32,038 bases of DNA, taken from a virus. This document shows positions 2,777 to 25,895 of the stretch, piece after piece. The notes below the pieces were generated by a model, which had not been told where the DNA came from, ran no database searches, and saw only the letters and a list, made by a program, of their open reading frames with translations. Within the stretch, counting starts at the first letter, position 1; every line of letters begins with the position of its first letter. The position numbers were made by a program, and so were the translations under genes. The stretch lies in IMG/VR virus record IMGVR_UViG_3300029264_000244, positions 1 to 32,038 of that record; one strand, 5' to 3'.

Positions 2777-2785
2777 CCCCCTTTT

Positions 2786-4673: not shown

Positions 4674-4684
4674 ATTGATATCTA

Positions 4685-7559: not shown

Positions 7560-8293
7560 GTATCAAATGCCCATGTTTTTTCGCCACACCAGAAGCAATT
7601 CCCGCAGGGTGTAGAATAGTAATCCGTGTCGTCGAACTTGCCCACACATGATGAAGTGAATGGATATAAACTATCCATAAGATTATGATCTTTGTATACC
7701 CCGGCAACAAACTTCTTATCTACGTTTACAAGAGGCTGATACTGCCTTCCCATTTTCCATTGTATTTGATGATCCCTACGATCTCTGCGTCTTTCCGCTA
7801 CGTCATAAAAACCGTATTTGCGTTGTTCTTCGACCGGCGGATTAGCAGTCATACCCGTCATTATTGTATGACCCGGATATTGATTTTTAAGTCTATCAGC
7901 GTTAGCATTAAGAAATAAAACTTTTACTAATCCCGATAGTTTTTTAAATTTATGTATTACAGTACCATTAAGCCCTATTGTGGTTTCGCTGTCCCATTGT
8001 TCCTGTGCTTTCGCGCGCCATTCTGGATCCCAGATATCAAATCTATATGCGTCCTGCTCTTTAATATTTGCATTCGGAAATATTTCTCTAATGAATTGTA
8101 ATATATCTTTAGTGCATTCGTAATCCATAGGGGCAGTAACATCATGACCGGTATAGGGTACAATTTCTGTGTCGGGAAAGTAATGGCATATTAAATATAA
8201 TATAGCAGCAGAATCTAGTCCTCCCGATAACGATAAAAGAACTTTATCAGGGCATTTAAAATCTATTGTTTGATTACCGTATGTTAGGTTCAT
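7556..8293 (-). CDS. PP-loop ATP pyrophosphatase, QueC-like
   Basis: The 245-residue product has the ATP-pyrophosphatase PP-loop SGGLDS at residues 23-28. It ends with a Cys cluster CGNCFWCGEK (Cys230, 233, 236) preceded by Cys216, like the zinc site of QueC, which makes 7-cyano-7-deazaguanine. In QueC the first cysteine is about eight residues from the CGxCxxC; here the gap is 13. No QueD, FolE or DpdA homologue is in the window, so it may be a relative adenylating another carboxylate or amide. Its ATG overlaps the stop of the radical SAM gene (ATGA) with AAGGA 7 nt upstream. The overlap places it second in the long minus-strand operon. The superfamily is firm, the reaction is not. Confidence 0.8.
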   Translation of the reverse strand: MNLTYGNQTIDFKCPDKVLLSLSGGLDSAAILYLICHYFPDTEIVPYTGHDVTAPMDYECTKDILQFIREIFPNANIKEQDAYRFDIWDPEWRAKAQEQWDSETTIGLNGTVIHKFKKLSGLVKVLFLNANADRLKNQYPGHTIMTGMTANPPVEEQRKYGFYDVAERRRDRRDHQIQWKMGRQYQPLVNVDKKFVAGVYKDHNLMDSLYPFTSSCVGKFDDTDYYSTPCGNCFWCGEKTWAFDT

Positions 8294-9543
8294 GATTTGT
8301 CCTTATAAAATTCTTCTAGCTCCGGCCAAACATCAAACAGTTCCATTTCCCACTTGGTACCTCTATATGCCTCATCACCTTTCATTAAGTAGTTACATAC
8401 TTCATTAAAGTTTGCATCAGGCTCTTGGGGCATTTTTAAGGCTTTTACAATGTCCGCATATTTTGGATTATCTTTATAGTGGGGGATTAGCCCATCTTTT
8501 AATGGTTTAGGTAAATTGTTTATTCTAAGTTGTGCCGGGCTTTGTATTAACCAATGACTGCCGCCCGAGATAAAAGGATTCTTATCAGCGTATTCGATTA
8601 TCTCATGAAAGCGTAATATACCCGGGACGGACAGAGTAGAGTTAAGATTTAATATAACATTATCGAACTTTGAACACGCCTCTATATTTGCTTCTATTTC
8701 TTGGAAGGACGACCTGCGTCTAATATAATCATTATACTTACCCACTGCATCAATGGAAACCGTTATAATGACTTGTTTAAAATGAGGAATGTAACTTAAA
8801 AAGTTGTGCTTACCATTTTTTAGCTTAGATAAATTCGTCTGATATTTTATTTGAATATTTTTAGACTCACCGGATTGCACCAATCTATCTAGCACGGAAT
8901 AGTATTGCTTCATAACAAGTGGCTCACCGCCAATGATTTTTAATGTTCTTACATACGGTGCCAGTTCAATCATCTGGTTAATGACTATATTATCATCTAC
9001 CTTATCCAAGTTAGCGGTCATTGATAATTTCTTAGAGCGATCGATATTACCCCAAACGGTCTCATTAAACGTGCCTTTTTTATATGCCATATCTTGCCGC
9101 GTTGTAGAACTAAAGTGGTGACACATATAACAGTCCAGGTTACATTTTGAACCGAATACCCTAAGCTGTAGTTCTAGTATTCTTTCGTCCAAATCATAAC
9201 CGGCAACGGCGCTCATACGCACCGCCCGATCAACTAACGCCCATTGTGACTTGTGACTTTTAAGTGCTCCCGTTGATTTTAGTCTTCTGGAATTACCATA
9301 TCGCTCTTCGTCAAACTTACACCTATGGCAAACTTTATTAACCATTTCGTGATTAGAATTGGGGTCAAGCATTTCGGCGCGAAGCTGTTCCATTTTATCG
9401 CTCTGCATCCATTCCACTATAGACGTATTCTCGACACCCATATGCTTGTCGGGCTCGGCAAAGTTACAAGGGGCGTATTTCCCGTTATCATGGGCATATA
9501 CCATATTCCAAGGGGATACGCAAAAGAAATTGTCTTTAGCCAC
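8290..9543 (-). CDS. Twitch/SPASM-type radical SAM protein with N-terminal cysteine domain
   Basis: The 417-residue product has a cysteine region before the radical SAM core: FFCVSPW (Cys8), APCNF (Cys26) and VCHRCKF (Cys72, Cys75). This arrangement is often annotated as a twitch domain-containing radical SAM protein in phages. The core motif is CNLDCYMC (Cys134, 138, 141), and GGEP follows in LKIIGGEPLVM near residue 208. Translation starts at a GTG at 9543, because no ATG precedes the family-like N-terminus; a weak GAAAG lies upstream. It is the first gene of the minus-strand operon and shares a 56-bp divergent region with the plus-strand arm of the island. Substrate unknown; peptide or protein substrates are common in the SPASM/twitch group. 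Confidence 0.87.
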   Translation of the reverse strand: MAKDNFFCVSPWNMVYAHDNGKYAPCNFAEPDKHMGVENTSIVEWMQSDKMEQLRAEMLDPNSNHEMVNKVCHRCKFDEERYGNSRRLKSTGALKSHKSQWALVDRAVRMSAVAGYDLDERILELQLRVFGSKCNLDCYMCHHFSSTTRQDMAYKKGTFNETVWGNIDRSKKLSMTANLDKVDDNIVINQMIELAPYVRTLKIIGGEPLVMKQYYSVLDRLVQSGESKNIQIKYQTNLSKLKNGKHNFLSYIPHFKQVIITVSIDAVGKYNDYIRRRSSFQEIEANIEACSKFDNVILNLNSTLSVPGILRFHEIIEYADKNPFISGGSHWLIQSPAQLRINNLPKPLKDGLIPHYKDNPKYADIVKALKMPQEPDANFNEVCNYLMKGDEAYRGTKWEMELFDVWPELEEFYKDKS

Positions 9544-9556
9544 GATTTAACTTTCA

Positions 9557-9564
9557 CATAAATA
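9557..9564 (+). promoter_or_regulatory. T4-type late promoter, CATAAATA
   Basis: CATAAATA differs from the T4 late consensus TATAAATA by one base and is identical to six other sites in the window. It lies 35 nt before the ATG at 9600, so the plus-strand arm of the accessory island is probably expressed late with the virion genes. Confidence 0.7.
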
Positions 9565-9565
9565 G

Positions 9566-9584
9566 ATTCATACTATATATGAAT
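9566..9584. promoter_or_regulatory. Inverted repeat in the divergent region
   Basis: ATTCATA and TATGAAT form perfect 7-bp arms around a 5-nt spacer, just downstream of the late promoter and upstream of both divergent genes. It could be an operator for a dimeric regulator or a short RNA hairpin. An alternative ATG at 9579 for the plus-strand gene falls inside it. AT-rich palindromes occur by chance, so confidence is modest. Confidence 0.4.
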
Positions 9585-9599
9585 AGATTAGGATATAGC

Positions 9600-10541
9600 A
9601 TGATAGAAAAAGCAGTGATAGAGATATGTGGCTCGTGTAATTACTCTTGCTCGTTTTGCCCACACTCATTTACTGAAGGCAGGGAAAGATCTTTCCGTAA
9701 GATGATGAACTATCAACAGTTCGTCAATACCCTTGACCAGCTAATGGAAACTAATTGTAAAGAAATATATTTAGAAGGTTCCGGCGAACCGACTATGAAT
9801 AAAAAGCTGCCTGAATTTGTAAAAGCTGGTACTGATAGAGGATTTAAAATGTCTTTTATTACTAACGGCTTTTGGTTCAAAGACGACTTAATGAAGCGAA
9901 CAGTCGATGCAGGTATGCATTTTGCACGTATCTCGGTCACCGGATCTAATCCAGAGGCATACCATAAGAACATGAGCAAAGACGCTTTCTATCAAGTAAT
10001 GGATAATGCGAATGCAGCTATTGCTTATGGCGGAAGTATTGGATCTTATTCTCTTATCTTAGACAACGATAATATGGAGAATGAGGTTAATGAATATCGC
10101 CAAAACTGGATTGACCACGTGCCTGGGATCAGAGCGTCTATCTGGAAAATGCACAACTGGTCAGGGCAGCTAGGAGTGGATTGGCGCAAAGGCAAAAAGA
10201 AACGAAGTTGTGGTAGACCGTTTTCACCCGATTTAATCGTACGCGCGGGCGGGAACGGCGGGAAGACAGGAGCGGTGGTTCCATGTTGTATGGTATTAGG
10301 TCAAGACAGTAAAGCTGTTCTAGGACACTTGTCGGACCAAAGTCTAGAAGATATCTGGTATGGGGAGGAATATAACAAGCTCCGCAAAGCACACGAGATG
10401 CACGACTTTGATTCTATTGATTACTGCAAAAGCTGTGATATGTTATACGACGCACCGGATGCGCTAGTATGGTCTAACTTCAATGCTGACTATAATACTT
10501 TAACCGGATCTACCTTTACTATGGAGCAATTCAGGAAATGA
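9600..10541 (+). CDS. Radical SAM/SPASM domain protein
   Basis: The 313-residue product has the radical SAM motif CNYSCSFC (Cys13, 17, 20), a GSGEPT version of the SAM-binding GGEP (60-65), and a C-terminal SPASM region. The latter has RSCGRPFSPD, VPCCMVLGQ, HLSDQSLEDIWYG and YCKSCDM, the classic order of auxiliary-cluster cysteines around a phrase typical of peptide- and protein-modifying SPASM enzymes. The ATG at 9600 has AGGA six nt upstream and puts the motif at the usual distance from the N-terminus. An ATG seven codons earlier lies in a palindrome and lacks a ribosome site. It leads a four-gene plus-strand unit joined by ATGA overlaps. This is the most conventional radical SAM/SPASM protein of the five. 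Confidence 0.9.
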   Translation: MIEKAVIEICGSCNYSCSFCPHSFTEGRERSFRKMMNYQQFVNTLDQLMETNCKEIYLEGSGEPTMNKKLPEFVKAGTDRGFKMSFITNGFWFKDDLMKRTVDAGMHFARISVTGSNPEAYHKNMSKDAFYQVMDNANAAIAYGGSIGSYSLILDNDNMENEVNEYRQNWIDHVPGIRASIWKMHNWSGQLGVDWRKGKKKRSCGRPFSPDLIVRAGGNGGKTGAVVPCCMVLGQDSKAVLGHLSDQSLEDIWYGEEYNKLRKAHEMHDFDSIDYCKSCDMLYDAPDALVWSNFNADYNTLTGSTFTMEQFRK

Positions 10542-10969
10542 TATATATTGATAAGAAGAAAACTAGAATAACTTCTTTCACTATATCTAAGACATTGCAG
10601 CAGATGCATCTTGATCATATAATAGAGAACTTGGAACGACTGAGTAAAGAAAACTTTAACCGAGTTAGTATTCCCGACTTTGACTATAGAACAGACGGAA
10701 GTGAAATAACTATAGAGTCGGAATATATAAAAGGCAATCATATCGATCTATCTCATATGAATATATTATACGAAGACCTAGTCCTTAGACCTAGCGAATA
10801 CAGCTTTCATGATTATCAATTCTGTAATTATATGACAAGAGACGGGAAGATCTACGTTATAGACTTAGATGATTACAGGGTTATTTCACTGGAAGACCGA
10901 AAGAAAGATTGGTTAAAAATACAAAGAGAAGAAATCTTAAAATTAAAAAGGTTGCATAAATTACTATGA
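10538..10969 (+). CDS. Small kinase-like protein (protein kinase/APH fold C-lobe)
   Basis: The 143-residue product shows an ESEYIKG segment (61-67) like a kinase hinge. SFHDYQFCNYMTRDGKIYVIDLDDYRV (90-114) resembles the catalytic loop and metal-binding motif of aminoglycoside phosphotransferase-type kinases. Candidate residues are His91, Asn97 and Asp109/Asp111. The ATP-binding N-lobe is too short for a complete kinase, and the catalytic loop lacks the usual HxD(x)4N spacing. It is either a minimal kinase or a kinase-like binding protein. The ATG overlaps the radical SAM stop (ATGA) with AGGA close upstream, and its own stop overlaps the next ATG. Phosphorylating a sugar or acceptor in the island pathway is possible but unproven. 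Confidence 0.55.
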   Translation: MIYIDKKKTRITSFTISKTLQQMHLDHIIENLERLSKENFNRVSIPDFDYRTDGSEITIESEYIKGNHIDLSHMNILYEDLVLRPSEYSFHDYQFCNYMTRDGKIYVIDLDDYRVISLEDRKKDWLKIQREEILKLKRLHKLL

Positions 10970-11460
10970 AAACAATTGTTTGCGATAACTACCTAGATAA
11001 AAATGTATACGATATGTTATATAAAATGTATCAAAACACTAAAGGCGGACATGACGTAGAAAGAACAATGTTTGATTATGATCCAACGCCCAAGATTGCG
11101 GATCTTATTAATCAGTTTAGTAACACAAGGGAATATACTAAACTAGCTAAATTTATTCACACGGCGGCTACGCCTCCTAACTTTCATCATAAGATACACG
11201 ATGAAGCGGAGTTTAAGATTATGTCTGCTATTGTTTATATTGGTCCAGAAAAGGCTCCCGGCACTACATTCTATATCGACGGTAAAGAAAACACGATTGA
11301 ATGGAAACCCAATAGACTAATGGTTTTCTGCGGAGAGACGAACGTCACTTGGCATGATTATAAATCAGATAATAATATGAGATTTACCTATAACTATTTT
11401 TTAATTGATCCGACTAAGGTAGAAAATGAAACATATAAAAACAATATTATTGGGATGTGA
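10966..11460 (+). CDS. 2-oxoglutarate/Fe(II)-dependent oxygenase-like protein
   Basis: The 164-residue product matches the small prolyl-4-hydroxylase-like oxygenases often found in phages. The first strand pair gives KIHDEAEFKIMSAIVYIGP, where His78 and probably Glu80 (or Asp79) sit at the HxD metal site. The far side gives FCGETNVTWHDYK with His130, then MRFTYNYFLID with Arg139 as the 2-oxoglutarate anchor. An H-x-E rather than H-x-D triad would be unusual. Such enzymes hydroxylate proteins, sugars or nucleobases using oxygen and 2-oxoglutarate. The ATG overlaps the previous stop (ATGA) without a good Shine-Dalgarno, so coupling is likely. Family well supported; substrate unknown. Confidence 0.8.
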   Translation: MKTIVCDNYLDKNVYDMLYKMYQNTKGGHDVERTMFDYDPTPKIADLINQFSNTREYTKLAKFIHTAATPPNFHHKIHDEAEFKIMSAIVYIGPEKAPGTTFYIDGKENTIEWKPNRLMVFCGETNVTWHDYKSDNNMRFTYNYFLIDPTKVENETYKNNIIGM

Positions 11461-12256
11461 CACGGCCGAGCAAGTAGCTTATACTGTTATGTTTGACGAA
11501 AGCACTGTACAAGCTCACGCTACCATTATGAGCCAACTTTGTACTCCTTTATGGAAGATACAAAGCTTGTACGAAGAAGGCATAATAACTGAGCCGCAAG
11601 TAATTAACGTATTTATCCCAGAAAGATTTATAGGTCTTAAACTACACCCCCGTAATATTAATACATGCGATCAGCACTTAATATACTTTATGGAAAACTT
11701 TGTTCCCCCGGCGCCGGGAGTTGCTTTTAAAGTGTATACATTTAATGAAATTGATGGCCGCGTACAAGCCCCGTGGAATGCAAAATGCATTTGGCCATTT
11801 AAGCAGCAGTGGATCGGCGACGGTGACTATATAACACTACAGAAACACGGCGAGACAATATTAAGCAAAAAGACTCATCTCTTTAGAGATATTGCAAGGC
11901 GAAGCGGGCAAGTGGATATAATAAACAACATAGAACGATATAGCGAATATCCGGTAAAAGAAATAAGCTATACTATGACGGAAGAAGATTTTTTTAATAC
12001 ATTAATACATTCCAAAAAGCATTATACTTATATGGGGTCTAGTTATTACTCTGCAGCTTTAATTAATTGTCCTACGATATGCTTTGGGTTTCCTACGGAT
12101 ATGCCTAGTATCTGGGGTCACGATATGGGGAACGGGTTTAAGAATATATGCCAATATGATTTTAATAAGGTATATAATGGGCCTACAACTTATGTTAGCC
12201 ACACCAATTCAGTAAACGAATTAAAGGGGCATTTACTAGGTATAAACCCTAATTAA
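11426..12256 (+). CDS. Unrecognised protein, possibly GT-B glycosyltransferase-like
   Basis: The 276-residue product has no motif I can name securely. The C-terminal third contains a helix, HSKKHYTYMGSSYYSAAL, followed by INCPTICFGFP. This resembles the segment in GT-B enzymes and surveillance-type sugar transferases where a His/Ser-rich turn meets the donor site. The N-terminus starts with a strand, IKTILLGCDT. The ATG at 11426 lies inside the end of the oxygenase gene (35-bp overlap), with AAGG about 7 nt upstream. It is the last gene of the plus-strand arm of the island; a late promoter for the virion block follows 6 bp after its stop. No signal peptide or membrane segment is visible. Confidence 0.55.
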   Translation: MKHIKTILLGCDTAEQVAYTVMFDESTVQAHATIMSQLCTPLWKIQSLYEEGIITEPQVINVFIPERFIGLKLHPRNINTCDQHLIYFMENFVPPAPGVAFKVYTFNEIDGRVQAPWNAKCIWPFKQQWIGDGDYITLQKHGETILSKKTHLFRDIARRSGQVDIINNIERYSEYPVKEISYTMTEEDFFNTLIHSKKHYTYMGSSYYSAALINCPTICFGFPTDMPSIWGHDMGNGFKNICQYDFNKVYNGPTTYVSHTNSVNELKGHLLGINPN

Positions 12257-12261
12257 AATAC

Positions 12262-12269
12262 CATAAATA
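12262..12269 (+). promoter_or_regulatory. T4-type late promoter, CATAAATA
   Basis: CATAAATA preceded by an A-rich tract (AATTAAAATAC) lies 39 nt before the ATG at 12309 and 6 nt after the stop of the last island gene. It marks the start of the virion gene block. Confidence 0.75.
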
Positions 12270-12308
12270 CATATAGCTAATCACAGCTTTCAACCACGGA
12301 GAAAATAT

Positions 12309-12551
12309 ATGTCTGGACCACGCGTAACAATCGACCTGCTCGGAACATTGACCGAAGCAAATAACAATGCAGCTAATTTTACAAGACAGGTAAAATTAAT
12401 GTTGGAAGCCGAAGCAAGAACCTACGATTTAGAATTAGACAGCAGAAATAATCCTTGGGATATGTACAATCAATTGGAAGCACATATTGCATCTTTGGCT
12501 CCCCAGACGGTTCCTGACGACGGTCCAGTGGCTGAATCTATTCCTGAATGA
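12309..12551 (+). CDS. Small protein of unknown function under late control
   Basis: This 80-residue protein is not recognised. It starts MSGPRVTIDLLGTL, has a probable amphipathic helix over residues 16-40 (NNAANFTRQVKLMLEAEART), and ends in an acidic proline-containing tail. It has no cysteines and no membrane segment. The ATG has GGAG 9 nt upstream, and the gene stands alone between two late promoters, which suggests a virion or assembly-related role. Its position next to SPASM-type radical SAM genes makes a modified peptide conceivable, but it lacks Cys and has no leader-like features, so I do not favour that. Confidence 0.65.
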   Translation: MSGPRVTIDLLGTLTEANNNAANFTRQVKLMLEAEARTYDLELDSRNNPWDMYNQLEAHIASLAPQTVPDDGPVAESIPE

Positions 12552-12596: not shown

Positions 12597-12953
12597 ATGG
12601 CCATATACAAAGAGCTTCTGATAGACCAAGGTTCTACTTTTAGATACCAAGTAAGTGTATCTGATACGAATGACGACACTGCGTTCGACCTTACAGGGTT
12701 TACAGCTACCTCCCATATTAAAAAAACGTATAAATCAGTATCACCCAGCGCCACATTTACTTGTGGATTCGCTGGGGGTAACGCCGCGTCAGGTGGGATA
12801 ACCCTAAGTCTAACAGACGAGCAAACTAAGCTTCTCCCCGCAGGAAGATACATGTTTGACGTAGTAATCGAATCCGCATCGGGTGACATTTTTAGAGTAG
12901 TAGAGGGGCTTATCGAAGTAACTCCCGGCGTAACATTCCCGGCGGCATCTTAA
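12597..12953 (+). CDS. Small beta-rich virion-associated protein (BppU-N-like)
   Basis: The 118-residue product resembles a small phage family with an immunoglobulin-like or BppU N-terminal fold. Its pattern is a short polar N-terminus, FDLTGFTATSHIKK (30-43), LTDEQTKLLPAGRYMFDVVI near residues 76-95, and VVEGLIEVTPGVT at the end. Members usually lie next to tail fibre or baseplate genes and may link fibres to the tail. It has a strong ribosome site (GGAGG about 6 nt before the ATG) and its own late promoter. The gene for the long repeat protein follows one base after its stop, so the two are likely co-translated partners. The exact virion position is unknown. Confidence 0.66.
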   Translation: MAIYKELLIDQGSTFRYQVSVSDTNDDTAFDLTGFTATSHIKKTYKSVSPSATFTCGFAGGNAASGGITLSLTDEQTKLLPAGRYMFDVVIESASGDIFRVVEGLIEVTPGVTFPAAS

Positions 12954-12954
12954 T

Positions 12955-15900
12955 ATGGATAACAAATACAGACGCACAGGGCTAACAGGTAGCCCTCATT
13001 TTAACGTTAAAACTGAAAGAACTAAAAATCCTTTTTACCTAAAACACGGTGCCATTCAAACTGTAGTAGAGACGGTAAACGAAGGAACATCAGAGCAATA
13101 TGAGAGTAAGTATTACATTGGAACTGGCTATCTTCCAATGCGGAGATATCAATCTTTACTCTTAGGATCTTCGGTTTCCATATCCGAGGCGTTTCTGACT
13201 GGTACCGCCCTTGATCCATTCTTCGATCAGGTTGAGGTGGACGGAAAAACTCTTGTAGACTTCTTAGTAGAAAAAGGCCTTTCAGAAAATCTCAATACCT
13301 CAGACGTTACTAGCTTTGTCTTTGGGAAGAATATCATTGAGCCGTTTAGCGCTGTAGAACAATTAGCGTTCCACCTAAGATCGGGCTTACAAGATAACTT
13401 TAATGCAAATGATATTGTTTTTGTCGAGGTTGGTATCTTTAAGACCTTTGCTGACGAGGCAAATGCAACCGAAGAAGCTCGTTGGAATTTCTTTAAGACA
13501 TTAGCCGACGACGCGCAGATCCTAGATCTTGTGGGTATTCCAGATGGGTCTACATTCCAGTTTATTAAAAGTCTTGGCGACGAGGCAATTACTTCCGAAA
13601 GTCTTGTTCGCACGTGGGTGGCATTTAGAGAATTTAACGACCCTGCTAACGTGTCGGAGGCAAAGGTACTTGATCTTAGCAAACCGTTCGGCGAGACAGC
13701 AACCATAACCCAGACTCTACAAAAAGCCTGGTCGTTGTTTAGTCCTTTCGTCGACGCCGCAACGATTACTCATGATACTATTGCTTTGGTATACTCCGCG
13801 GGACGGAGTATTACAGACAGCCTTAATTCGTCTGATGTTCAACATTTACAAATTACAAAAGTATTAGAAGAACTAGCAAATCCATCTGAAGAGTTAATAT
13901 GGGATCTAAATAAAGTATTTAACGATCTCGCGGACGCTCTCGACTCTCCTCCCGATTTTACAATAAATAAGATTTTTGCAGATATTGCAACTGCGCAGGA
14001 TTTAATCGGCGTACCAGATGGAGCTACATTCCAGTTTATTAAAACTATTGCTTCCGTAGCAGATACACTTACGACAACCGACGTTCTAGAACGCCAGTTT
14101 ACGGCGTTTAGAACCTTTGGAGATGCTCCGACAGCAAATGATTTTGCAGCTATTCTTTTCGCCACGGCATTCGACCACGCTGCGGACGCGACGGATCTTA
14201 CCGCCATTAATCTTAGTAGACCTTTAAGTGACGTAGTTGATACGAATGAATTCGCAGCTGTCTTCCAATCATATGTAAGAAACTTTACGGATTCTGCCGC
14301 CTTATTCCATCCTCTTATTAATATTAATATGGCCAAAGCTATAGCGGACGGGATTAGTGTATCTGACCTATTGGACGATCACTTTGATATATTCGTAGCT
14401 AAGATTATTGCTGACCAAGCTACGATTACCGATCTTCCTTTGCTTAATATCGCAAAGCCTTTGTCTGAAGAATTGAATCTAACTGAATTAGTACAAAACC
14501 TTGTTGGCAAAATATTCGGTCATAGCGCAGGCGTAGAGGAACATGATTTCCATCGTCTTCTCACAAACAAAGTAATTGCCGATGAACTTAATCCAGCAGA
14601 AGCCAATACATTACTTACGAATAAGCCTCTCGCGCACAATGTTACTTTATCAGAGGCAATTAGTCTAATTAGATTTAGACTACGAGAACTTGCTGATAGT
14701 TTTTCTACTGGAGAAAATGCGCTACTTCACGCTACTAAACGTTTTGCAGACACGGCAAACGCACAAGATCTTTTGGGTGTTCCAGATGGATCTACGTTCC
14801 AGTTTATTAAGTCTGTAAGCGAATCAGGTCTTGACGTACTAGATGCTCTTTTAGTAAGCCTCGGAAAAGAGCTTGCTGAGGAAGCGACTCTTAGCGAAGA
14901 ACACTTATTTAGCCTTGCGAAGCCGCTACAAGAGACCGCATCAGCCATACAGCAAGCAACGATTTCTTTTGAAACGGCTTTTGCCGATCAAGCAGACTTC
15001 TTCCATCCTCCCGCGCAAAAGTTTATCGGAAAGCCAGTTTCCGAGCAAGTAGACTTTAGCGATCCCGATCGTCTGTTTAATATGAATAAGGGATTGGCAC
15101 ACTCAGCAACTCCGGCTGACCTATTGGCCCAAAGCGTCGCAAAGCCGGTTGCCGATACCCTATCCTTTAGTGAAGCAATAGCACAGCATTTTGGCAAACC
15201 ATTAAGCGACATCCAAAATATTACAGAGTTCTTTGCTCTTGCATATTCAATCGGAATTCCATTAGCATCCAGCGCAGCGGTTACTAATAATGACGTTCTT
15301 AATATTATAGCTTTTGCTAAAAATATATCAGACGGCGTTACTATGCAAGACCTTTTGGGTGTTCCGGATGGAATAACCTATAGTATGATTCAGTCGCTAG
15401 CTGATCAGGTTGCTATGGGTGATCCGATTGCTATTGGTTTACAAAAGCCTTTTGCAGATACAGCAACATTCTTAGAGAGTCTAGCAAATCACCTTAATCT
15501 TGTCAAAGGTGACCCAGCGACAGCAAATGACGAAGATCCCACATTGGACACGAATCAGGTTAAATCCGAATTTGTATTGGCGAATCAGGCAAACGTATTA
15601 GCAGTTAGTAAAATCCTTACCGATCAAGCAGCCTTCTTCCATCCTCCCGCGCGATTGTTTACTACCAAGTTTATTAAAGCTAGCGCCGCCAAGCCTAGCA
15701 CAGTAGAAGCTGAAGATTTCGACGGCTTTGATTTAGACTTTACGTTTGGCTTAAAATTCAATGATGTCACCGGTAATGAGCCTATAAAGGATGTTATAGA
15801 TCGCAAAGATATCGGAAAAGTTATTTCAGATATTTTCTCGGCAATCCAACAGCATTCGTTTAATATGACAAAGCTCTTTGGTCACTCTACAACTCCTAGC

Positions 15901-17226
15901 GATAGCCCTGCCATTGCTACAAGCCTTGTTCCTTTTGTCGGGGACAACTCTATCGAGCCAACAGATGTTGTTCCTGACGTCCACCCAAATAAAGGCTTCT
16001 TTGACACCCAGACCATAAGCGAAGCAATTGCTAGAAAAGTTCTAAGTAAATTTATATCTGATATAGCAAACATACAAGACTTAGTTGGCATTCCAGACGG
16101 AATAACGTTTGAGTTTATAACAGCACTATCACATACTACTACCGCCACGGACGCGATTAACTTAATATCGCAACATTGGGTACGCAATCTCGCGGATAGC
16201 GCAGGCGTAGAGGAACATGATTTCCATCGTCTTTTTACAAACAAAGTAACTGCTGACCTCGTCACCCTAAACGAAGACATATCAGGTCAAACAAGTAAAG
16301 TCTTTAGCCACGGTGTTACCATAGCAGAAGGTTCTGCGTTTGGCGTTGGTAAATCACTAACCGAATCACAAAGTCTAACTGATGCGCTAGTATCTACTCT
16401 AGGCTTCGGACGTAATTTCGGGGACAACGCAACTCCTGGCGATAGTCCTGCCTTAGCTACAAGCACCAGCTTCGGCCACTCTGCAACGCCTGGCGACGCT
16501 CCTGCGTTAAATCCGAGTAAAGTCTTTGGGCATGGTGTTACCATAGCAGAAGGTTCAGTAACCACGACCGGTAAGGTTATAGCAGATTCTACTACTCCAG
16601 GTGACGCGATTAACTCGATTCTTCGAACCCTTGTATATGGTTTCGCGGACAGCACAACACCATCCGAGAATGCTATTCTTAATTCTAATAAGATACTGGC
16701 GCACTCAGCAACTCCTAGCGATAGCCCTGCCAAAGCCACAAGCACAAGCTTTGGTCACTCCGCAACGCCGGGTGATAGTCCTGCCTTTGGCACATCATTA
16801 CCATTCGGTCATGGGGTTACAGCAACCTTTACTAACAGTATAAATACAACTAAGGGATTGGCACACTCAACAACTCCTAGCGATAGCCCTGTCAAAGCCA
16901 CAAGCACCAGCTTTGGTCACTCTACAACGCCTGGCGATAATAGTCCCTTACTTAGTATTGGCATTCCATTAGCTGACGCAGCAAATGCTTTAGATCTAGT
17001 AGGAGTTCCAGACGGTATAACTTACCAGTGGTCCACAAGTTTCGCAGACCAAATTACGTCTACCGAGAATGCAGCTAAGGCATTCTCCACGGGCCGAGCA
17101 GATACTGCTTCAACAAGCGAAGCAGGCAAATTAATTCAAAGGGATTACTTTGCTTCAGATTATGTAGAATTTGACCTTTCCGACCCACTTGCTGCTTACG
17201 ATGCAGCATTAACTCGATCCTTCTAA
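12955..17226 (+). CDS. Very long repeat protein, probable tail fibre or virion adhesin
   Basis: This 1423-residue protein is the largest in the window. Residues 1 to about 160 form a non-repetitive head. From there to about residue 1390 it is built of about 18-residue repeats with the loose consensus K-P-L-A-D-x-A-T-x-S-D-x-L-x-x-x-L-x. Six copies are lengthened by a GVPDG(x)T(F/Y) insert, and three have FFHPPA-like centres. The C-terminal quarter drifts to FGHSATPGDSPA-type repeats, ending in YFASDYVEFDLSD. There is no signal peptide or cysteine cluster. It starts one base after the stop of the preceding small gene and has no promoter of its own. Regular repeats suggest a long thin fibre; host-receptor binding is an inference. 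Copy number could vary by recombination. Confidence 0.75.
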   Translation: MDNKYRRTGLTGSPHFNVKTERTKNPFYLKHGAIQTVVETVNEGTSEQYESKYYIGTGYLPMRRYQSLLLGSSVSISEAFLTGTALDPFFDQVEVDGKTLVDFLVEKGLSENLNTSDVTSFVFGKNIIEPFSAVEQLAFHLRSGLQDNFNANDIVFVEVGIFKTFADEANATEEARWNFFKTLADDAQILDLVGIPDGSTFQFIKSLGDEAITSESLVRTWVAFREFNDPANVSEAKVLDLSKPFGETATITQTLQKAWSLFSPFVDAATITHDTIALVYSAGRSITDSLNSSDVQHLQITKVLEELANPSEELIWDLNKVFNDLADALDSPPDFTINKIFADIATAQDLIGVPDGATFQFIKTIASVADTLTTTDVLERQFTAFRTFGDAPTANDFAAILFATAFDHAADATDLTAINLSRPLSDVVDTNEFAAVFQSYVRNFTDSAALFHPLININMAKAIADGISVSDLLDDHFDIFVAKIIADQATITDLPLLNIAKPLSEELNLTELVQNLVGKIFGHSAGVEEHDFHRLLTNKVIADELNPAEANTLLTNKPLAHNVTLSEAISLIRFRLRELADSFSTGENALLHATKRFADTANAQDLLGVPDGSTFQFIKSVSESGLDVLDALLVSLGKELAEEATLSEEHLFSLAKPLQETASAIQQATISFETAFADQADFFHPPAQKFIGKPVSEQVDFSDPDRLFNMNKGLAHSATPADLLAQSVAKPVADTLSFSEAIAQHFGKPLSDIQNITEFFALAYSIGIPLASSAAVTNNDVLNIIAFAKNISDGVTMQDLLGVPDGITYSMIQSLADQVAMGDPIAIGLQKPFADTATFLESLANHLNLVKGDPATANDEDPTLDTNQVKSEFVLANQANVLAVSKILTDQAAFFHPPARLFTTKFIKASAAKPSTVEAEDFDGFDLDFTFGLKFNDVTGNEPIKDVIDRKDIGKVISDIFSAIQQHSFNMTKLFGHSTTPSDSPAIATSLVPFVGDNSIEPTDVVPDVHPNKGFFDTQTISEAIARKVLSKFISDIANIQDLVGIPDGITFEFITALSHTTTATDAINLISQHWVRNLADSAGVEEHDFHRLFTNKVTADLVTLNEDISGQTSKVFSHGVTIAEGSAFGVGKSLTESQSLTDALVSTLGFGRNFGDNATPGDSPALATSTSFGHSATPGDAPALNPSKVFGHGVTIAEGSVTTTGKVIADSTTPGDAINSILRTLVYGFADSTTPSENAILNSNKILAHSATPSDSPAKATSTSFGHSATPGDSPAFGTSLPFGHGVTATFTNSINTTKGLAHSTTPSDSPVKATSTSFGHSTTPGDNSPLLSIGIPLADAANALDLVGVPDGITYQWSTSFADQITSTENAAKAFSTGRADTASTSEAGKLIQRDYFASDYVEFDLSDPLAAYDAALTRSF
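14522..14559 (+). repeat. 38-bp exact direct repeat, copy 1
   Basis: This segment is identical over 38 bp to 16196-16233 and encodes SAGVEEHDFHRL in both places. The similarity continues past it with a few substitutions (ACAAACAAAGTAA). The surrounding repeats are much more diverged, which points to a recent gene-conversion-like copying event inside the fibre gene. Confidence 0.85.
16196..16233 (+). repeat. 38-bp exact direct repeat, copy 2
   Basis: Second copy of the 38-bp identical segment at 14522-14559, about 1.67 kb downstream and in the same reading frame. Recombination between the two would delete about 558 residues in frame. Confidence 0.85.
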
Positions 17227-17293: not shown

Positions 17294-17749
17294 ATGATCC
17301 GTGAAACACTCGCCGCTACAGGCAAACTAAATATCGTTCTTACAAACAAGCACGGTGCTGTAAAAGAAACCCGCGAAGTTCCAAACGTTGTCGTAACTGT
17401 TGGTAAGACGTGGATCGCAGCTCGTATGACTGACACAGGCCGTCCAGATGATATGTCACACATGTCTGTTGGTACAACTGCAACTGCTGCTGCAGTAACT
17501 CAGACTACTCTTGTTGCTGAAAACGGCCGTCAAGGTTTAACAGGCGGCGAAGGCGCACCTGCAGCCTCGACTATCGTTTACACGGCTACTTTTGCTGCTG
17601 GTACTGGTACTGGCGCATTGGTAGAAGCTGGCGTATTCAACAGTGCTACTGCAAACGGTGGCGTTATGCTTTGCCGTACAGTATTCGCTGCTGTAAACAA
17701 AGGTGCTGATGACTCAGTTACTATCACTTGGACCGTTACTATTGCTTAA
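17294..17749 (+). CDS. Small virion structural protein, function unassigned
   Basis: The 151-residue product is rich in Ala, Thr, Val and Gly. Residues 8-36 (ATGKLNIVLTNKHGAVKETREVPNVVVTV) are a beta-hairpin-like start, followed by a glycine-alanine-rich central region and a VTITWTVTIA ending. This is typical of small phage tail or fibre-associated proteins in marine myophages, though I cannot name the family. It has a strong AGGAGA ribosome site and its own late promoter, suggesting abundant late expression. Codons are dominated by GCT, ACT and GTT, which also fits high expression like the capsid gene. A virion role is inferred from composition and neighbours. Confidence 0.62.
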   Translation: MIRETLAATGKLNIVLTNKHGAVKETREVPNVVVTVGKTWIAARMTDTGRPDDMSHMSVGTTATAAAVTQTTLVAENGRQGLTGGEGAPAASTIVYTATFAAGTGTGALVEAGVFNSATANGGVMLCRTVFAAVNKGADDSVTITWTVTIA

Positions 17750-17793: not shown

Positions 17794-18798
17794 ATGGCTA
17801 CTATCGTAACGCGTTCTGGAAAAGGCTCATCGTTAACTAATGATGAAGTCGATGCCAACTTTAACAACTTAAATGCTGGTAAAGTTGAAAAAACTTCGGA
17901 TACTGGTGCAGCTCTTGTTCCAGCCGGAACTACAGCACAACGCGATGGCACTCCGGCGGGTGGCTACTTTCGATTTAATTCGACAACAGATCATATTGAG
18001 TTCTATGACTCTGCAGCTTGGCAATCCGTTGCCAAGCTGTCAGGTGACACGTTTACCGGAACCGTAATAGCTCCTAAATTTCAAGGCGCTGTGGACGGAG
18101 CAACAATACTTAAAGGCATAAATTCAAGCGGCGTAACGCTTGTAGCCGGCACTGTAGTATCTCTTCATTCTGGCTCGACATTAGGTAGCCCAAAATTTGA
18201 CCGAGCTGATTGCACAATAGCTGCAAAGATGCCTGCAGTTGGTTTTGTAAATGCAACTTCTACAAATGGCGCAGAATGTATCGTTACCACTTCCGGCACA
18301 CATATAGGCCTTGATACGAGTACAATGACGGTCAATGACCCGATCTTTGTGCACGCAGTAGCGGGTCAGGTTACAACCACTCATCCTACACTAGAAGTCT
18401 CCCAAATACAACGTATCGGATACGTTCTTTCCGTAGACTCAGACGGCGAAGTTGAAGTGGGTATGACAGGTCGTGCAGAAGATCTTCCTAACCTTAACAA
18501 CGGTAACTTCTTTTTTGGAGCAGGTGGCGTTGCAACTAGAGTAAGCTTTGCTACAAAATATACCGAAGCTTTAGCTCTTAATTCCATCGGTGGATTATCA
18601 GACGTAGCACTTACAACACCTGCAGCCGGGCAATATTTATCTTGGGATAGTGCCGAACAAGAGTTCGTTAACGGAGTATTGGCAATACCTGCAGACGGAG
18701 TAGGCGAAGACGAATTATTTAACAAGACTACGCTAATTATTAAAAACTCCAGTGGCACGGCTTTAAAAACAATATTCGGCGTAGGGATCACTTCATAA
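17794..18798 (+). CDS. Tail fibre-like structural protein
   Basis: The 334-residue product begins with SGKGSSLTNDEVDANFNNLN (8-27), a segment recurring at the N-terminus of fibre and baseplate-associated proteins of marine T4-like phages. A short FNSTTDHIEFYDSAAWQSV segment (62-80) follows, typical of fibre connector repeats. The rest is beta-rich and includes a C-terminal LSDVALTTPAAGQYLSWDS stretch (268-286), which is also common in fibre proteins. The ATG at 17794 has GAGGT about 10 nt upstream. It is the last gene before the neck genes. The receptor-binding tip may be on this or the long repeat protein; the window does not tell which. Confidence 0.72.
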   Translation: MATIVTRSGKGSSLTNDEVDANFNNLNAGKVEKTSDTGAALVPAGTTAQRDGTPAGGYFRFNSTTDHIEFYDSAAWQSVAKLSGDTFTGTVIAPKFQGAVDGATILKGINSSGVTLVAGTVVSLHSGSTLGSPKFDRADCTIAAKMPAVGFVNATSTNGAECIVTTSGTHIGLDTSTMTVNDPIFVHAVAGQVTTTHPTLEVSQIQRIGYVLSVDSDGEVEVGMTGRAEDLPNLNNGNFFFGAGGVATRVSFATKYTEALALNSIGGLSDVALTTPAAGQYLSWDSAEQEFVNGVLAIPADGVGEDELFNKTTLIIKNSSGTALKTIFGVGITS

Positions 18799-18851: not shown

Positions 18852-19595
18852 ATGGCAGTAAATTCTAAAATTACCCTTATACAATATGCGCTGCGAAAGC
18901 TAGGTGAACCTGTTATTGAAATTAACGTTGACCCGGATCAATTAGATGATCGCGTGGACGAAGCGTTAGAAGTATACCGGGAGTTCCATTCCGAAGCAAC
19001 TAAAAAAATATACCTGAAGCACGAAATAACCCAACTAGATATTACGAATAAATATATCCCTATCCCCGCAGAAATTGTGTCGGTTACTAAAATGTTTCCC
19101 ATCTCAAAAGGCTTCGGTGGCGGCTCAGGTATGTTCGATCTTCAGTATCAAATGATGCTAAACGACATGGCATTCATGGGATCATATCGCCAAGGTGGTA
19201 TGGCATCTTATGAGCAAATGCAGCAGCACCTTGGTCTGCTTGACATGAAGTTAAACGGCACACCACAAGTGACTTACTCCCGCCATGAGGATAGACTTTA
19301 TATCCACGGCGAGCTAGGCACCGATATCCTATTAGGCGATTTCGTAGTTATAGAAGCATATGAGTATCTAGAAGGTACTCAGGTGTTCAACGATATGTGG
19401 CTTAAGAAGTTTACTACTGCTTTGGTTAAAAGACAATGGGGTGCAAACCTTATGAAGTTCGAAGGCATGCAGCTTCCCGGCGGTGTCACTCTTAACGGTG
19501 CACAGATCTTCCAAGACGCAATGGCAGAAATCGATAAGCTAGAAGAAGAAATAAGATCCACTTTCGAGCTTCCTATTGACTTTTTAGTAGGATAA
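18852..19595 (+). CDS. 13: Neck (head completion) protein, T4 gp13-like
   Basis: The 247-residue product fits T4 gp13, which with gp14 closes the filled head and forms the neck to which the tail joins. The N-terminus (LIQYALRKLGEPVIEINVD followed by LDDRVDEALEVYREFHSE) matches the usual helical start of gp13-type proteins. T4 gp13 is longer (309 residues). A methionine- and glutamine-rich central segment (MMLNDMAFMGSYRQGGMASYEQMQQ) is seen. It is first in the canonical series 13-14-15-16-17-18-19-20 and stops 4 nt before the gp14 ATG. The assignment relies on gene order plus N-terminal resemblance. Confidence 0.85.
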   Translation: MAVNSKITLIQYALRKLGEPVIEINVDPDQLDDRVDEALEVYREFHSEATKKIYLKHEITQLDITNKYIPIPAEIVSVTKMFPISKGFGGGSGMFDLQYQMMLNDMAFMGSYRQGGMASYEQMQQHLGLLDMKLNGTPQVTYSRHEDRLYIHGELGTDILLGDFVVIEAYEYLEGTQVFNDMWLKKFTTALVKRQWGANLMKFEGMQLPGGVTLNGAQIFQDAMAEIDKLEEEIRSTFELPIDFLVG

Positions 19596-19599
19596 TAAA

Positions 19600-20475
19600 A
19601 TGGCAACAAATCCTTATTTTAGTCACAGAGTTTTATCAGAGCAGCATCTCTATGAAGATATTGCAATCGAATCTCTTAAAATGTACGGAACGGATGTTTA
19701 CTATCTTCCCCGTGACATTGTTAATGAAGACAAGATCTTTGGCGCCGATGTAATCCACCGATTTAACTCTTCCCACGTTGTTGAAATGTACATTGAAAAT
19801 GTAGACGGCTTTGACGGAGAAGGCGATCTGTTCTCTAAGTTCGGGATCGAAATTCGCGACACGGCGACGTTTATCGTATCTAGGCGTCGCTGGAGACAGA
19901 CCGTCGGATATGACGATAACGAGGTAACGTCTGAACGACCTTTGGAAGGGGATTTAATCTATCTTCCTTTGTCTAATTCTATGTTCCAGATTATGCACGT
20001 CGAGCATGAACAGCCATTCTACCAGTTAAGCAATCTGCCTACATACAAGATGCGTTGCGAATTATACGAACCGAATGATGACGATTTTGATACAGGTATC
20101 GAGATTATTGATTCACTAGAAAGCCAAGGATTCACGATTGATCTTACCTTAACGGCAAGCAGTTTCACACTCACAGATGGCGAAACCGTGAGTCAGACGC
20201 TTGCGAGTGGCAAAATCATAACAGGCGAAGTCGTTGACTATAACGGGGTCACTAACATAGTAAGACTTGCACACGTAGGATCAAACGACGACGAGTATCA
20301 TACGTTTATTCCGGGTAATATTACAGGCAGTATTAATACTGCAACGCGAGTCGTTACAGCGGTAAATGATACACTGAATCAGGTAACTGCACAGAATGAC
20401 GACTTTAAAACAGAATCATTGGACTTCCTAGACTTTAGTGAAGGTAATCCATTCGGCGAACCGGGGAGCAGCTAA
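19600..20475 (+). CDS. 14: Neck protein, T4 gp14-like
   Basis: The 291-residue product corresponds to gp14, the second neck protein that forms the head-tail connector with gp13. The start MATNPYFSHRVLSEQHLYEDI followed by an aromatic, acidic segment (VYYLPRDIVNEDKIFGAD) is typical of gp14. It is slightly longer than the T4 protein (256 residues), with extra beta-type sequence near residues 170-270. AGGA precedes the ATG by 8 nt. Its stop overlaps the next start by one base (TAATG), so gp14 and gp15 are translationally linked. Confidence 0.86.
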   Translation: MATNPYFSHRVLSEQHLYEDIAIESLKMYGTDVYYLPRDIVNEDKIFGADVIHRFNSSHVVEMYIENVDGFDGEGDLFSKFGIEIRDTATFIVSRRRWRQTVGYDDNEVTSERPLEGDLIYLPLSNSMFQIMHVEHEQPFYQLSNLPTYKMRCELYEPNDDDFDTGIEIIDSLESQGFTIDLTLTASSFTLTDGETVSQTLASGKIITGEVVDYNGVTNIVRLAHVGSNDDEYHTFIPGNITGSINTATRVVTAVNDTLNQVTAQNDDFKTESLDFLDFSEGNPFGEPGSS

Positions 20476-21251
20476 TGTTTGGAACTCACTTTTATCATCA
20501 GCGTATTCGCAAATCAGTAGCTACCTTTGGTGCACTGTTTAATAACTTAAATGTTATCCGCAAGAATGCTGCAGGCAATGTAATTAGCACTGTTCGCGTG
20601 CCTCTCGCGTACGCGCCTCGCGAGAAGTATTTAGATCGTATCCGTGAGAATCCTGACTTAGAGGATAACACGATGACGGCTATTAAGCTTCCTCGTATGT
20701 CATTCGAGATTGTTAACTTCCAATATGACGGCACTCGTATGGTTGGTAAGACAAATCAATTCAGTAAGGCAAGTCCAACGACCGTTCAGAATAGAAAGAT
20801 ATTCTATGCAGGCGTTCCGTATAACATATTCTTTCAGCTGAATGTTTATGCACGTAGCCACGACGATGCTCTGCAAATCGTAGAACAGATTGTTCCTTAC
20901 TTTGGTCCACAATACAATCTTACAGTAAAACCATTCGAAGACTATCCTGAAGTAAAAGAAGACGTGCCACTTACTTTGCAGTCTACCTCATTCAGCGATG
21001 ACTTTGAGAGTGTATTAGAACAACGTAGAACGATCATATATACTCTTGAGTTCGAAATGAAGACAATGTTCTATGGTCCAATTGGTGACAGTAAGATCAT
21101 CCGCAGTGTTCAGACCAACTTCTACCTACAGGGTGGCACGGGTGATTCCGATACCCATATAAGTGCGTTTGTTACATCGCCTGATCCTGTTAATGTAAAT
21201 GCTGATTCCGACTATGGATTCAATACAACTTGGACGGATTATATAGGTTAA
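20475..21251 (+). CDS. 15: Tail sheath stabilizer and completion protein, T4 gp15-like
   Basis: The 258-residue product fits gp15, the hexameric terminator that caps the finished tail and contacts the neck. The N-terminus MFGTHFYHQRIRKSVATFGALFNNL and the VPLAYAPREKYLDRI segment (42-56) are typical features of gp15 in T4 relatives. Its length is close to the T4 protein (272). The start shares a base with the gp14 stop; there is no separate ribosome site beyond GGGGAG about 10 nt upstream. A GC-rich inverted repeat near 20600-20625 lies inside the coding region and is probably incidental. Confidence 0.88.
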   Translation: MFGTHFYHQRIRKSVATFGALFNNLNVIRKNAAGNVISTVRVPLAYAPREKYLDRIRENPDLEDNTMTAIKLPRMSFEIVNFQYDGTRMVGKTNQFSKASPTTVQNRKIFYAGVPYNIFFQLNVYARSHDDALQIVEQIVPYFGPQYNLTVKPFEDYPEVKEDVPLTLQSTSFSDDFESVLEQRRTIIYTLEFEMKTMFYGPIGDSKIIRSVQTNFYLQGGTGDSDTHISAFVTSPDPVNVNADSDYGFNTTWTDYIG

Positions 21252-21254
21252 ACA

Positions 21255-21617
21255 ATGAGTGACTCCGATAAACAAATAGACGATGACTTTGATTTCTCTC
21301 GTGGAGTATACCTGGATCTAATTAAGACAGGACAAGAAGCTCTCGGCAATATGATTGACGTAGCTCAAGAGAGTGAACATCCTCGTGCATATGAAGTGCT
21401 ATCTGGTATGATTAAGAACGTAAGTGATATCAATGATAAGCTTATGGATCATCATAAAAAGAAGAAAGATATGCAGAAGGTAGATAGTAAAGAAGCTGCT
21501 GCTATATCTGGAACAACGACGAATAATGTCTTTCTTGGATCTACAACAGATCTACAAAGAATGTTACAAGATGCATCAAAGCAAGCGATCGATATTACAC
21601 CTGACGATATGATATGA
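21255..21617 (+). CDS. 16: Terminase small subunit, T4 gp16-like
   Basis: The 120-residue protein sits directly before the large terminase and has the helical, charged composition of gp16. A predicted coiled coil runs through GQEALGNMIDVAQESEHPRAYEVLSGMIKNVSDINDKLMDHHKKKK (about 29-70). This corresponds to the central oligomerisation helices that form the ring on DNA and stimulate gp17. T4 gp16 is 164 residues, so this one lacks some terminal sequence. The ATG has AGG about 8 nt upstream and follows the gp15 stop by 3 nt. Confidence 0.87.
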   Translation: MSDSDKQIDDDFDFSRGVYLDLIKTGQEALGNMIDVAQESEHPRAYEVLSGMIKNVSDINDKLMDHHKKKKDMQKVDSKEAAAISGTTTNNVFLGSTTDLQRMLQDASKQAIDITPDDMI

Positions 21618-21702
21618 GTGTTCTATCCCTTTCCAAAGATGTCTCTTTATTATACCGAGGTTCCCTTGGTTTGTAAACCCCCTAAGTTAAAAAAAGTTCA
21701 TA

Positions 21703-23337
21703 ATGTCTGAAGATTTTAAAACAAAGCTCGGTGGTGGTAAAGACGAAAGCTATCTCGGTAACACCCAAGTCAAGCGCGATGGTGTATCGCAGCAATGGTC
21801 TGTAGCGCAGGTCCACGAGTATACCAAATGTATGCAAGATCCCTCATACTTTGCTCGAACCTATTGTAAGGTAATTCACGTAGATCGTGGCCTTGTTCCG
21901 TTTAAGCTATACCCATATCAAGAAAAGATGTTTAAGCACTTTGATGAGAATCGATTCTCTATCGTTCTTGCATGTCGCCAATCGGGTAAGTCTATATCTT
22001 CTGTTGCATATCTGCTATGGTATGCCATATTTAACACAGAACAAGTCGTTGCAGTCCTTGCCAACAAAGGTGCTACATCCAGAGAGATGCTATCTCGGGT
22101 AACTCTGATGCTGGAGAATCTTCCGTTCTTCTTGCAGCCCGGATGTAAAGCACTGAATAAAGGTTCGATTGAATTCAGTAATAACTCTCGCATTGTAGCT
22201 GCAGCAACATCAGGATCTTCTATCCGTGGTATGTCGGTTAATTTGCTATACCTCGATGAGTTTGCATTCGTCGAAGATGCTGCCACGTTCTACACATCTA
22301 CCTATCCAGTTGTTGCATCGGGTGAAAAGACAAAGGTTATTATTACTTCTACCGCGAATGGCTTGGGTAATCAGTATCATAAAATCTGGGAAGGTGCTAT
22401 CCAAGGGACAAATGAATATAAGCCATTCCGAGTAGATTGGTGGGACGTTCCCGGTCGTGACGAAGAGTGGAAGCGCATGACGATTTCCAACACGTCTAAT
22501 CTACAGTTCGACCAAGAATTCGGTAATACATTCTTTGGCACCGGCGATACTCTTATTGAGGGTAATACACTACTCAGCTTAAGATCTCAGGAGCCATTAG
22601 AAAGAACAAAAGACGGTGTTTTAATATACGAGCATCCGGTAAAAAATCATGAATACATTTGCTTAGTGGATGTAGCGAGAGGAAGAGGACTTGACTATTC
22701 AACGTTTAACATTATTGACATTACAGCTCGGCCGTTTAAGCAAGTTGCCGTATATCGAAACAATCGCATTAGCCCAATTCTTTATCCCAACGTAATCTAT
22801 AAATATGTTAATACATACAATGAAGCACTATGTGTCGTAGAATCAAATGATGCCGGACAAGTAGTTTGCATAGGTCTATACCACGATCTTGAGTATGAAA
22901 ACCTTTATGTTGAGAGCGCAGTAAAAGCTGATGCTCTTGGGGTGAATATGACTCGAAAGGTAAAAAGACTTGGTTGCTCTGCCTTTAAGGATATCCTTGA
23001 GAATGGCAAAATAGAAATTGTAGACCACGACACGATTATTGAGATTTCTACATTCGTGGCAAAGGGTGTATCATACGAGGCTTCTGATAATAACCACGAC
23101 GACTTGGTTATGAATTTCGTGATGTTTGGTTACTTTGCAAGCACTACCTACTTCCAAGATCACGCCGATATGGATCTAAAGAAGATGCTATTCGAACAGC
23201 AAATGGCAGAGATCGAAGCAGACGTTTTGCCATTCGGTATACACGATGACGGATCGGTCCATGCGGAACACGTCGATGCCTTAGATCTCCGACACGACGA
23301 CGGTGGTTGGTCTCTTGATAGAGATCACGAGTGGTAA
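21703..23337 (+). CDS. 17: Terminase large subunit, T4 gp17-like
   Basis: The 544-residue DNA-packaging motor has an ATPase and a nuclease domain. Walker A is CRQSGKS (91-97), Walker B is LLYLDEFAFV (Asp185, catalytic Glu186) and motif C is TSTANG (215-220). The RNase H-like nuclease has LVDVARG (Asp323), VVESN (Glu380) and NNHDDLVM (Asp466/467), the expected acidic triad that cuts concatemeric DNA after headful packaging. It is shorter than T4 gp17 (610 residues), mainly outside these motifs. The 85 nt before it lack a Shine-Dalgarno but contain an A-tract and CATAATG overlapping the start, resembling a decayed late promoter. Confidence 0.97.
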   Translation: MSEDFKTKLGGGKDESYLGNTQVKRDGVSQQWSVAQVHEYTKCMQDPSYFARTYCKVIHVDRGLVPFKLYPYQEKMFKHFDENRFSIVLACRQSGKSISSVAYLLWYAIFNTEQVVAVLANKGATSREMLSRVTLMLENLPFFLQPGCKALNKGSIEFSNNSRIVAAATSGSSIRGMSVNLLYLDEFAFVEDAATFYTSTYPVVASGEKTKVIITSTANGLGNQYHKIWEGAIQGTNEYKPFRVDWWDVPGRDEEWKRMTISNTSNLQFDQEFGNTFFGTGDTLIEGNTLLSLRSQEPLERTKDGVLIYEHPVKNHEYICLVDVARGRGLDYSTFNIIDITARPFKQVAVYRNNRISPILYPNVIYKYVNTYNEALCVVESNDAGQVVCIGLYHDLEYENLYVESAVKADALGVNMTRKVKRLGCSAFKDILENGKIEIVDHDTIIEISTFVAKGVSYEASDNNHDDLVMNFVMFGYFASTTYFQDHADMDLKKMLFEQQMAEIEADVLPFGIHDDGSVHAEHVDALDLRHDDGGWSLDRDHEW

Positions 23338-23357
23338 AACCCTCGACTTAAAAAAGT

Positions 23358-23365
23358 CATAAATA
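23358..23365 (+). promoter_or_regulatory. T4-type late promoter, CATAAATA
   Basis: CATAAATAG preceded by CTTAAAAAAGT, 52 nt upstream of the sheath ATG and just after the terminase stop. It would give the very abundant sheath and tube proteins their own strong transcript. Confidence 0.8.
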
Positions 23366-23417
23366 GTCATATGAACAATCGTATTATGAACATATCTTAC
23401 AATTAGGAGAACACCCA

Positions 23418-25241: not shown

Positions 25242-25255
25242 TAGGAGATATAACA

Positions 25256-25816: not shown

Positions 25817-25837
25817 TAAGTTACGGTTATAAACAAT

Positions 25838-25845: not shown

Positions 25846-25846
25846 A

Positions 25847-25874: not shown

Positions 25875-25895
25875 AGACTTTGATAGGGAAAAGAA

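Follow-up and report, generated by a model that had tools for sequence, protein, structure and literature searches.

A single locus in a T4-like bacteriophage raises the question of what a protein of 1,423 residues, built largely of short repeats, contributes to a phage particle. The window analysed here is the whole of IMG/VR record IMGVR_UViG_3300029264_000244 (32,038 bases), T4-like by its gene content, and the protein is encoded by an open reading frame (ORF) at 12955-17226 that opens with ATG and comprises 1,423 codons and a stop. The protein belongs to a widespread rod family that is essentially undescribed, within which it is unusually long, and it is likely to be a rod of variable length in a modular tail fibre. 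Its identity as a fibre is well supported by gene context. A reading made from the sequence alone (hereafter the sequence-only reading) had proposed a long fibre, and this proposal is backed by an LtfC/p132-like anchor gene, a gene with an LTNxEVDxNF motif and T4-like structural genes downstream, as well as by homologues fused to tail and baseplate domains.

An 18-residue repeat with inserts and a conserved end

The repeat unit has the 18-residue consensus G-K-P-F/L-A-D-S-A-T-A-S-D-A-L-x-L-x-F, present in imperfect copies. Lag 18 gave the top autocorrelation peak (z = 13.1 against 100 shuffles), with lag 36 as runner-up (z = 5.4). With a cyclic 18-state profile, the protein scored 654 bits and composition-matched shuffles 20-38 bits before retraining; after training the values were 1,134 bits for the protein and 188-226 for identically trained shuffles. 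Decoding with this profile assigned 1,123 residues to repeats, in approximately 65 units. The best-kept positions in the window protein are K2, F/L4, D/H/E6, A/V8, T/N9 and D/E12, and K2, D6 and D12 show strong conservation in a set of ~600 units drawn from 30 proteins. The period of about 18 residues noted in the sequence-only reading is therefore confirmed; the nearly constant phase is not, as units measure 18-20 residues (24 where an insert is present) and the array is broken by a non-repeat stretch near residues 850-953. Tandem Repeats Finder revealed no long DNA tandem array in the rod gene, only one of 37 bp, and the repeats are therefore old and diverged at the DNA level. Direct searches with the protein returned no match in INPHARED (tblastn), Pfam or PDB (E up to 1), and literature searches returned no described 18-residue repeat of this kind.

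Six units hold a six-residue insert, giving the form DLxG[VI]PDGxT[FY] (DG inserts). All six had been noticed beforehand, as had their uneven spacing, which is 158, 256, 194, 243 and 305 residues between successive starts (Table 1). No other local element of the protein is as well kept as the inserts, with 71% identity around inserts 2 and 3. In bacterial genomes the GVPDG pattern gave two chance matches only, both without repeats. A further element, missed in the sequence-only reading, is a conserved C-terminal tip motif, YFASDYV at residue 1398, which takes the family form YFxxDYV...F at the C-terminus. At the other end the repeats are preceded by a basic segment, as they are in the homologues. 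By analogy with the fibre N-termini of T5 and DT57C, this may be a docking segment (PMC10038345, PMC10713586).

Gene order around the repeat protein

The 118-aa anchor gene ends one base upstream of the rod gene. Its product matches phrog_1084 (3e-27) and phrog_3304, L-shaped tail fibre assembly (3e-17), and weakly the Pfam family LtfC. An LtfC-like alignment (profile A5) matched T5 p132 (7qg9_R, E 8e-4) and 8hqz_Q, an L-shaped tail fibre assembly chain (E 5e-3); the form that matches T5 p132 is that of the Kyanoviridae. A small BppU_N/LtfC-like protein precedes the rod in 11/11 loci inspected. One of these proteins matches BppU_N, and an alignment of eight of them matched the LtfC-like alignment (hhalign E 2.4e-5, probability 76%). 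The T5 p132 dodecamer is the collar bearing three lateral fibres; its fold resembles that of the BppU N-terminal domain, and it probably holds on to some 50 residues at the fibre N-terminus (PMC10038345). In DT57C, LtfC is a dodecameric ring in which the LtfA N-termini are held through strand addition (PMC10713586). The LtfC/p132-like neighbour is the firmest functional clue for the rod gene, though the homology is distant.

The rod gene is followed by a gene for a 151-aa protein (g151), which matches phrog_5417 (5.5e-22) and, weakly, the tail fibre family phrog_4176. With g151 as bait, 375 viral contigs were found to encode a relative; 80 of them were fetched, and the following counts rest on those. 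Space upstream of g151 was sufficient in 76 loci; in 64 of these the ORF immediately before g151 scores above 35 bits for the repeat, against a mean of 7.6 and a maximum of 42 bits for shuffled controls. Ten more have an upstream ORF of ~250-270 aa with a lower score and the tip motif at its end, and two have no qualifying upstream ORF. Repeats or a terminal tip were thus found in 74/74 loci having an ORF directly before g151. In 75/77 loci the first 90 residues of the ORF after g151 contain LTNxEVDxNF or a close variant; in the window this is a 334-aa protein whose N-terminal 80 aa are common to many PHROGs. The cassette order is LtfC-like anchor, repeat rod with tip, 151-aa protein and LTNxEVDxNF protein. 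All traits of the rod-tip family are present in the window, namely K-x-L-x-D-x-A-x-x-x-D repeats, YFxxDYV and the downstream g151 and LTNxEVDxNF genes. An alignment of g151 (profile A2) matched residues 411-508 of the HFTV1 gp44 baseplate hub (E 7e-4). That hub also anchors tail fibres, which are joined at its N-terminus (PMC12494034), and therefore the domain matched by g151 need not be the anchoring one.

In the fibre that we propose, the LtfC/p132-like protein would grip the basic N-terminal segment at the baseplate or tail, in the fashion of T5, and the ~65 units would make an extended rod, possibly rich in beta structure. The YFxxDYV tip would link this rod, with or through g151, to the LTNxEVDxNF protein, which would carry or begin the distal, host-contacting part. 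Rod length would be evolutionarily free and would set reach, growing through duplication of blocks with their DG inserts. The repeat, inserts, tip motif, cassette order, range of lengths and distant anchor homology are direct observations, whereas the location in the virion, the contacts between parts, the oligomeric state and the setting of reach are what we infer. A widespread cassette with unknown-function labels would thereby gain a concrete four-part fibre model.

The nearest parallel that we considered is the T5 lateral fibre system (Ltf/LtfA with the p132/LtfC collar), which likewise has an adjoining anchor gene, here with a weak p132/LtfC profile match, and a long fibre protein whose shaft is preceded by a short N-terminal segment. 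However, the window virus is T4-like, the g151 and LTNxEVDxNF genes come after the rod, and sequence searches matched the rod to no solved chain. In the T5 family LtfA of DT57C, moreover, runs on into an alpha-helical trimer (PMC10713586). No homology of the rod to Ltf/LtfA was detected in PDB (E up to 1), PHROG or Pfam. The T4 long tail fibre is also the product of several genes (gp34-gp35-gp36-gp37), and the proposed proximal rod, joint and distal part may be analogous to it; its repeat and gene order are different, and gp34-gp37 homology of the rod was absent among the PHROG, Pfam and PDB matches.

Several results weigh against this model. The anchor-to-p132 and g151-to-hub matches are both weak (E ~1e-3). 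In the BUCT-ZZ01 genome a long distance separates the gene for the repeat protein from the g151 homologue. AlphaFold2 monomer predictions for the homologues from contigs L014 (5 homologues) and L091 (15 homologues) gave a predicted local distance difference test (pLDDT) score of 29 and 31, respectively; an intertwined trimer would be expected to defeat monomer prediction, yet a low pLDDT is no evidence for a trimer. Finally, in C48C1, Melnitz, HTVC008M, Mosig and P-HM1 other proteins follow the LtfC-like gene, and the anchor is therefore not specific to the rod. In cultured Kyanoviridae these proteins are fibre-like, without repeats, tip or LTNxEVDxNF motif. Rod, joint and distal part therefore appear to be exchanged as one unit, while the anchor is shared.

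Array length, growth and fold

The DNA pattern of the insert recovered seven more viral contigs (L012-L016, L018, L019), plus same-species fragments. These contigs encode full or partial homologues with the repeat, the insert and C-terminal YFxxDYV...F, in a neighbourhood like that of the window; several also carry gp13 and subsequent T4-like genes. Over a short stretch, L018 (6647-7963, minus strand) reads ILGDTASLGDSPS versus IPDEIVIRAVDSPS in L014/L019, which resembles a compensated frameshift. Short homologues matched phrog_12240 in 12/15 cases and phrog_384 in 7/15, at the C-terminal end in the case of L044. The window protein matches phrog_12240 weakly (E 0.009), and neither family has a mechanism described in the family library.

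In siphophages a phrog_384 minor tail protein, encoded after the tape measure, bears the rod module as a fusion. Repeats in the following three phages were counted by eye from printed sequences. Pseudomonas phage Knedl has a phrog_384-type N-terminal domain, no repeats and the C-terminus YFAEDYVE. Achromobacter phage JWX gp22 has ~4 repeats and the tip, followed by a 151-like gp23 and by gp24, which opens with the form LTNxEMDxNL. BcepGomr gp17, itself phrog_384, has 5-6 repeats and the tip, and its gp18 and gp19, of the same kinds as JWX gp23 and gp24, come next. In BUCT-ZZ01 a protein adjoining gp6 combines a baseplate-wedge-like N-terminus with repeats and a tip-like end.

Viral homologues are mostly 245-450 aa in length, compared with 1,423 in the window, 2,243 in the L103 reading frame and >3,768 in L016. 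The L103 frame (5721-12449) is a stop-to-stop ORF with five internal copies of the tip (YFDSDYI), a terminal one and ten DG inserts. In L016 (2881-14184, minus strand) the rod runs off the contig end and shows a super-repeat of ~473 residues; 2,226 residues fall in recognised repeats, amounting to well over 100 units. The array therefore behaves as a spacer of variable length, set between a constant tip and a start that would be attached to the virion. The fusions of BUCT-ZZ01 and of the phrog_384 homologues to baseplate or minor tail domains, and the tip-like C-terminus that Knedl retains without repeats, would also suit a role in tail or baseplate structure, as a brace, whisker or collar decoration that makes no host contact. 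We regard this as unlikely, as a range from no repeats to well over 100 units fits a projecting arm better than an internal brace, and the anchor and LTNxEVDxNF genes stand on either side. A 3,347-aa ORF of C48C1 (profile score 141) was rejected as a family member owing to its different repeat, TRTRxSxYxGxY. This ORF (L004 1-9961), which also contains NFVGNYSRxF repeats, is annotated as hypothetical and lies near an LtfC-like gene.

There are 13 DG inserts in L016, compared with 10 in L103 and six in the window protein, and generally one apiece, counted by eye, in short homologues (L051 has no obvious one). They thus occur once per ~300-residue module in short homologues and several times in long ones. 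Being family-wide, with one per module, they look like a structural module part copied by duplication, and we infer that they are a standard component rather than a peculiarity of the window fibre. They may or may not mark the kinks or binding loops that the sequence-only reading suggested. Self-BLASTP of the rod proteins returned no matches, and self-comparison was made by ungapped diagonals. L016 is 75% identical at offset 475 across 193 residues, and L103 57% identical at offset 557, with further duplications at offsets 242 and 330. The window protein has duplications near its C-terminus at offsets 54 and 93 (51-61% identity, 51% at 93) and older ones at offsets 256, 414, 558 (35%) and 693. 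To judge from these sequences, rods were probably lengthened by duplicating blocks of units, each bringing a DG insert.

The rod is ~26% identical to that of L012, against 61-92% for its neighbours (gp17 92%, gp13 85%). Fast divergence is usual for host-facing proteins and counts in favour of the fibre model. Together with the close conservation around inserts 2 and 3, this divergence would suit a receptor-binding protein, with the repeats as an adhesive surface and the DG inserts as host- or metal-binding loops. However, the inserts are conserved in several phages, unlike variable specificity loops, length variation falls mostly in plain repeats, and a separate LTNxEVDxNF gene lies downstream; receptor binding by the rod itself therefore seems improbable to us.

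Turning to the fold, conservation and large hydrophobic residues alternate with period 2 in the set of ~600 units (50% and 40% of Fourier power, respectively), which suggests extended strands. On the hydropathy scale there is power at 3.6 residues as well, and strand cannot be told from helix by average Chou-Fasman propensities. Unit lengths across the family (18, n=368; 19, n=55; 20, n=38) have a parity that does not discriminate for beta structure, and MAFFT spread the stacked-repeat alignment (A3) over 210 columns. Adenovirus and reovirus triple beta-spiral shafts likewise have short repeats with alternating conserved positions and may be analogous; the window repeat differs in its 18-residue period and in keeping K and D at alternating positions. 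An alternative is that the array is no rigid rod but a flexible, mostly disordered tether joining anchor and tip, which would agree with the pLDDT of ~30, the richness in S, T, A, D and G and the highly variable sequence and length. We give it a low probability, as the composition falls on the folded side (Uversky H 0.50 against a boundary of 0.44), large hydrophobics occupy fixed positions with period-2 conservation, and K2, D6 and D12 are kept across the units of 30 proteins. The sequence-only reading had set disorder throughout against a fibre; composition does not indicate it, but no confident fold came out of AlphaFold2 either. The repeat region contains 59 Pro and 65 Gly, and its longest stretch free of both is <=34 residues, which makes a continuous alpha-helical coiled coil unlikely.

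If the length-variable rod is correct, these proteins offer a natural series, from no repeats to well over 100, for studying how phages tune reach, and possibly a new shaft fold. More tentatively, the array might be an undescribed shaft fold serving as an extension arm in myophages, siphophages and other tailed phages, in which unit number sets length and each duplicated block carries one DG loop; giant fibres may then offer several docking sites, as the tip copies of L103 would allow.

Other features of the window

Table 1. Coordinates of the rod gene, its parts and the adjoining cassette genes in the window.
Feature	Position	Strand	Basis
Anchor protein, 118 aa, LtfC/p132-like beta-sandwich	12597..12953	+	PHROG, Pfam, profile matches
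Repeat rod protein, 1,423 aa	12955..17226	+	ORF, translation, repeat statistics
N-terminal pre-repeat region (aa 1 to ~105), proposed docking segment	12955..13269	+	Cyclic profile decode; homologues
18-residue repeat array, ~65 units, interrupted	13273..17124	+	Cyclic profile decode
DG insert 1, DLVGIPDGSTF, aa 191-201	13525..13557	+	
DG insert 2, DLIGVPDGATF, aa 349-359	13999..14031	+	
DG insert 3, DLLGVPDGSTF, aa 605-615	14767..14799	+	
DG insert 4, DLLGVPDGITY, aa 799-809	15349..15381	+	
DG insert 5, DLVGIPDGITF, aa 1042-1052	16078..16110	+	
DG insert 6, DLVGVPDGITY, aa 1347-1357	16993..17025	+	
C-terminal tip motif (SEAGKLIQRDYFASDYV...F), ~aa 1388-1423	17116..17223	+	Recurs at C-terminus of family members
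g151, 151-aa cassette protein, proposed joint or cap	17294..17749	+	PHROG and profile matches
334-aa protein, N-terminal LTNDEVDANF (aa 14-23), proposed distal fibre	17794..18798	+	Motif; PHROG-shared N-terminus

Downstream of the cassette, 18852-30907 encodes gp13-gp15, the terminase subunits, sheath, tube, portal, protease, scaffold and major capsid protein. The major capsid protein is closest to that of phage C48C1 (63%), followed by Melnitz and HTVC008M (~60%).

Upstream, a minus-strand cluster at 450-9543 encodes a carbamoyltransferase, a DegT/DnrJ aminotransferase and several radical SAM/SPASM proteins, and is possibly a sugar or small-molecule modification island adjoining the fibre cassette. 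One more radical SAM/SPASM protein (9579-10541, plus strand) lies immediately ahead of the fibre region. Pelagibacter phage Mosig (L007 1-9774) has metabolic genes, including aminotransferases and oxygenases, directly 5′ of its LtfC-like gene. Mosig and the window are therefore alike in having a metabolic cluster upstream of the LtfC-like gene, but the genes are different.

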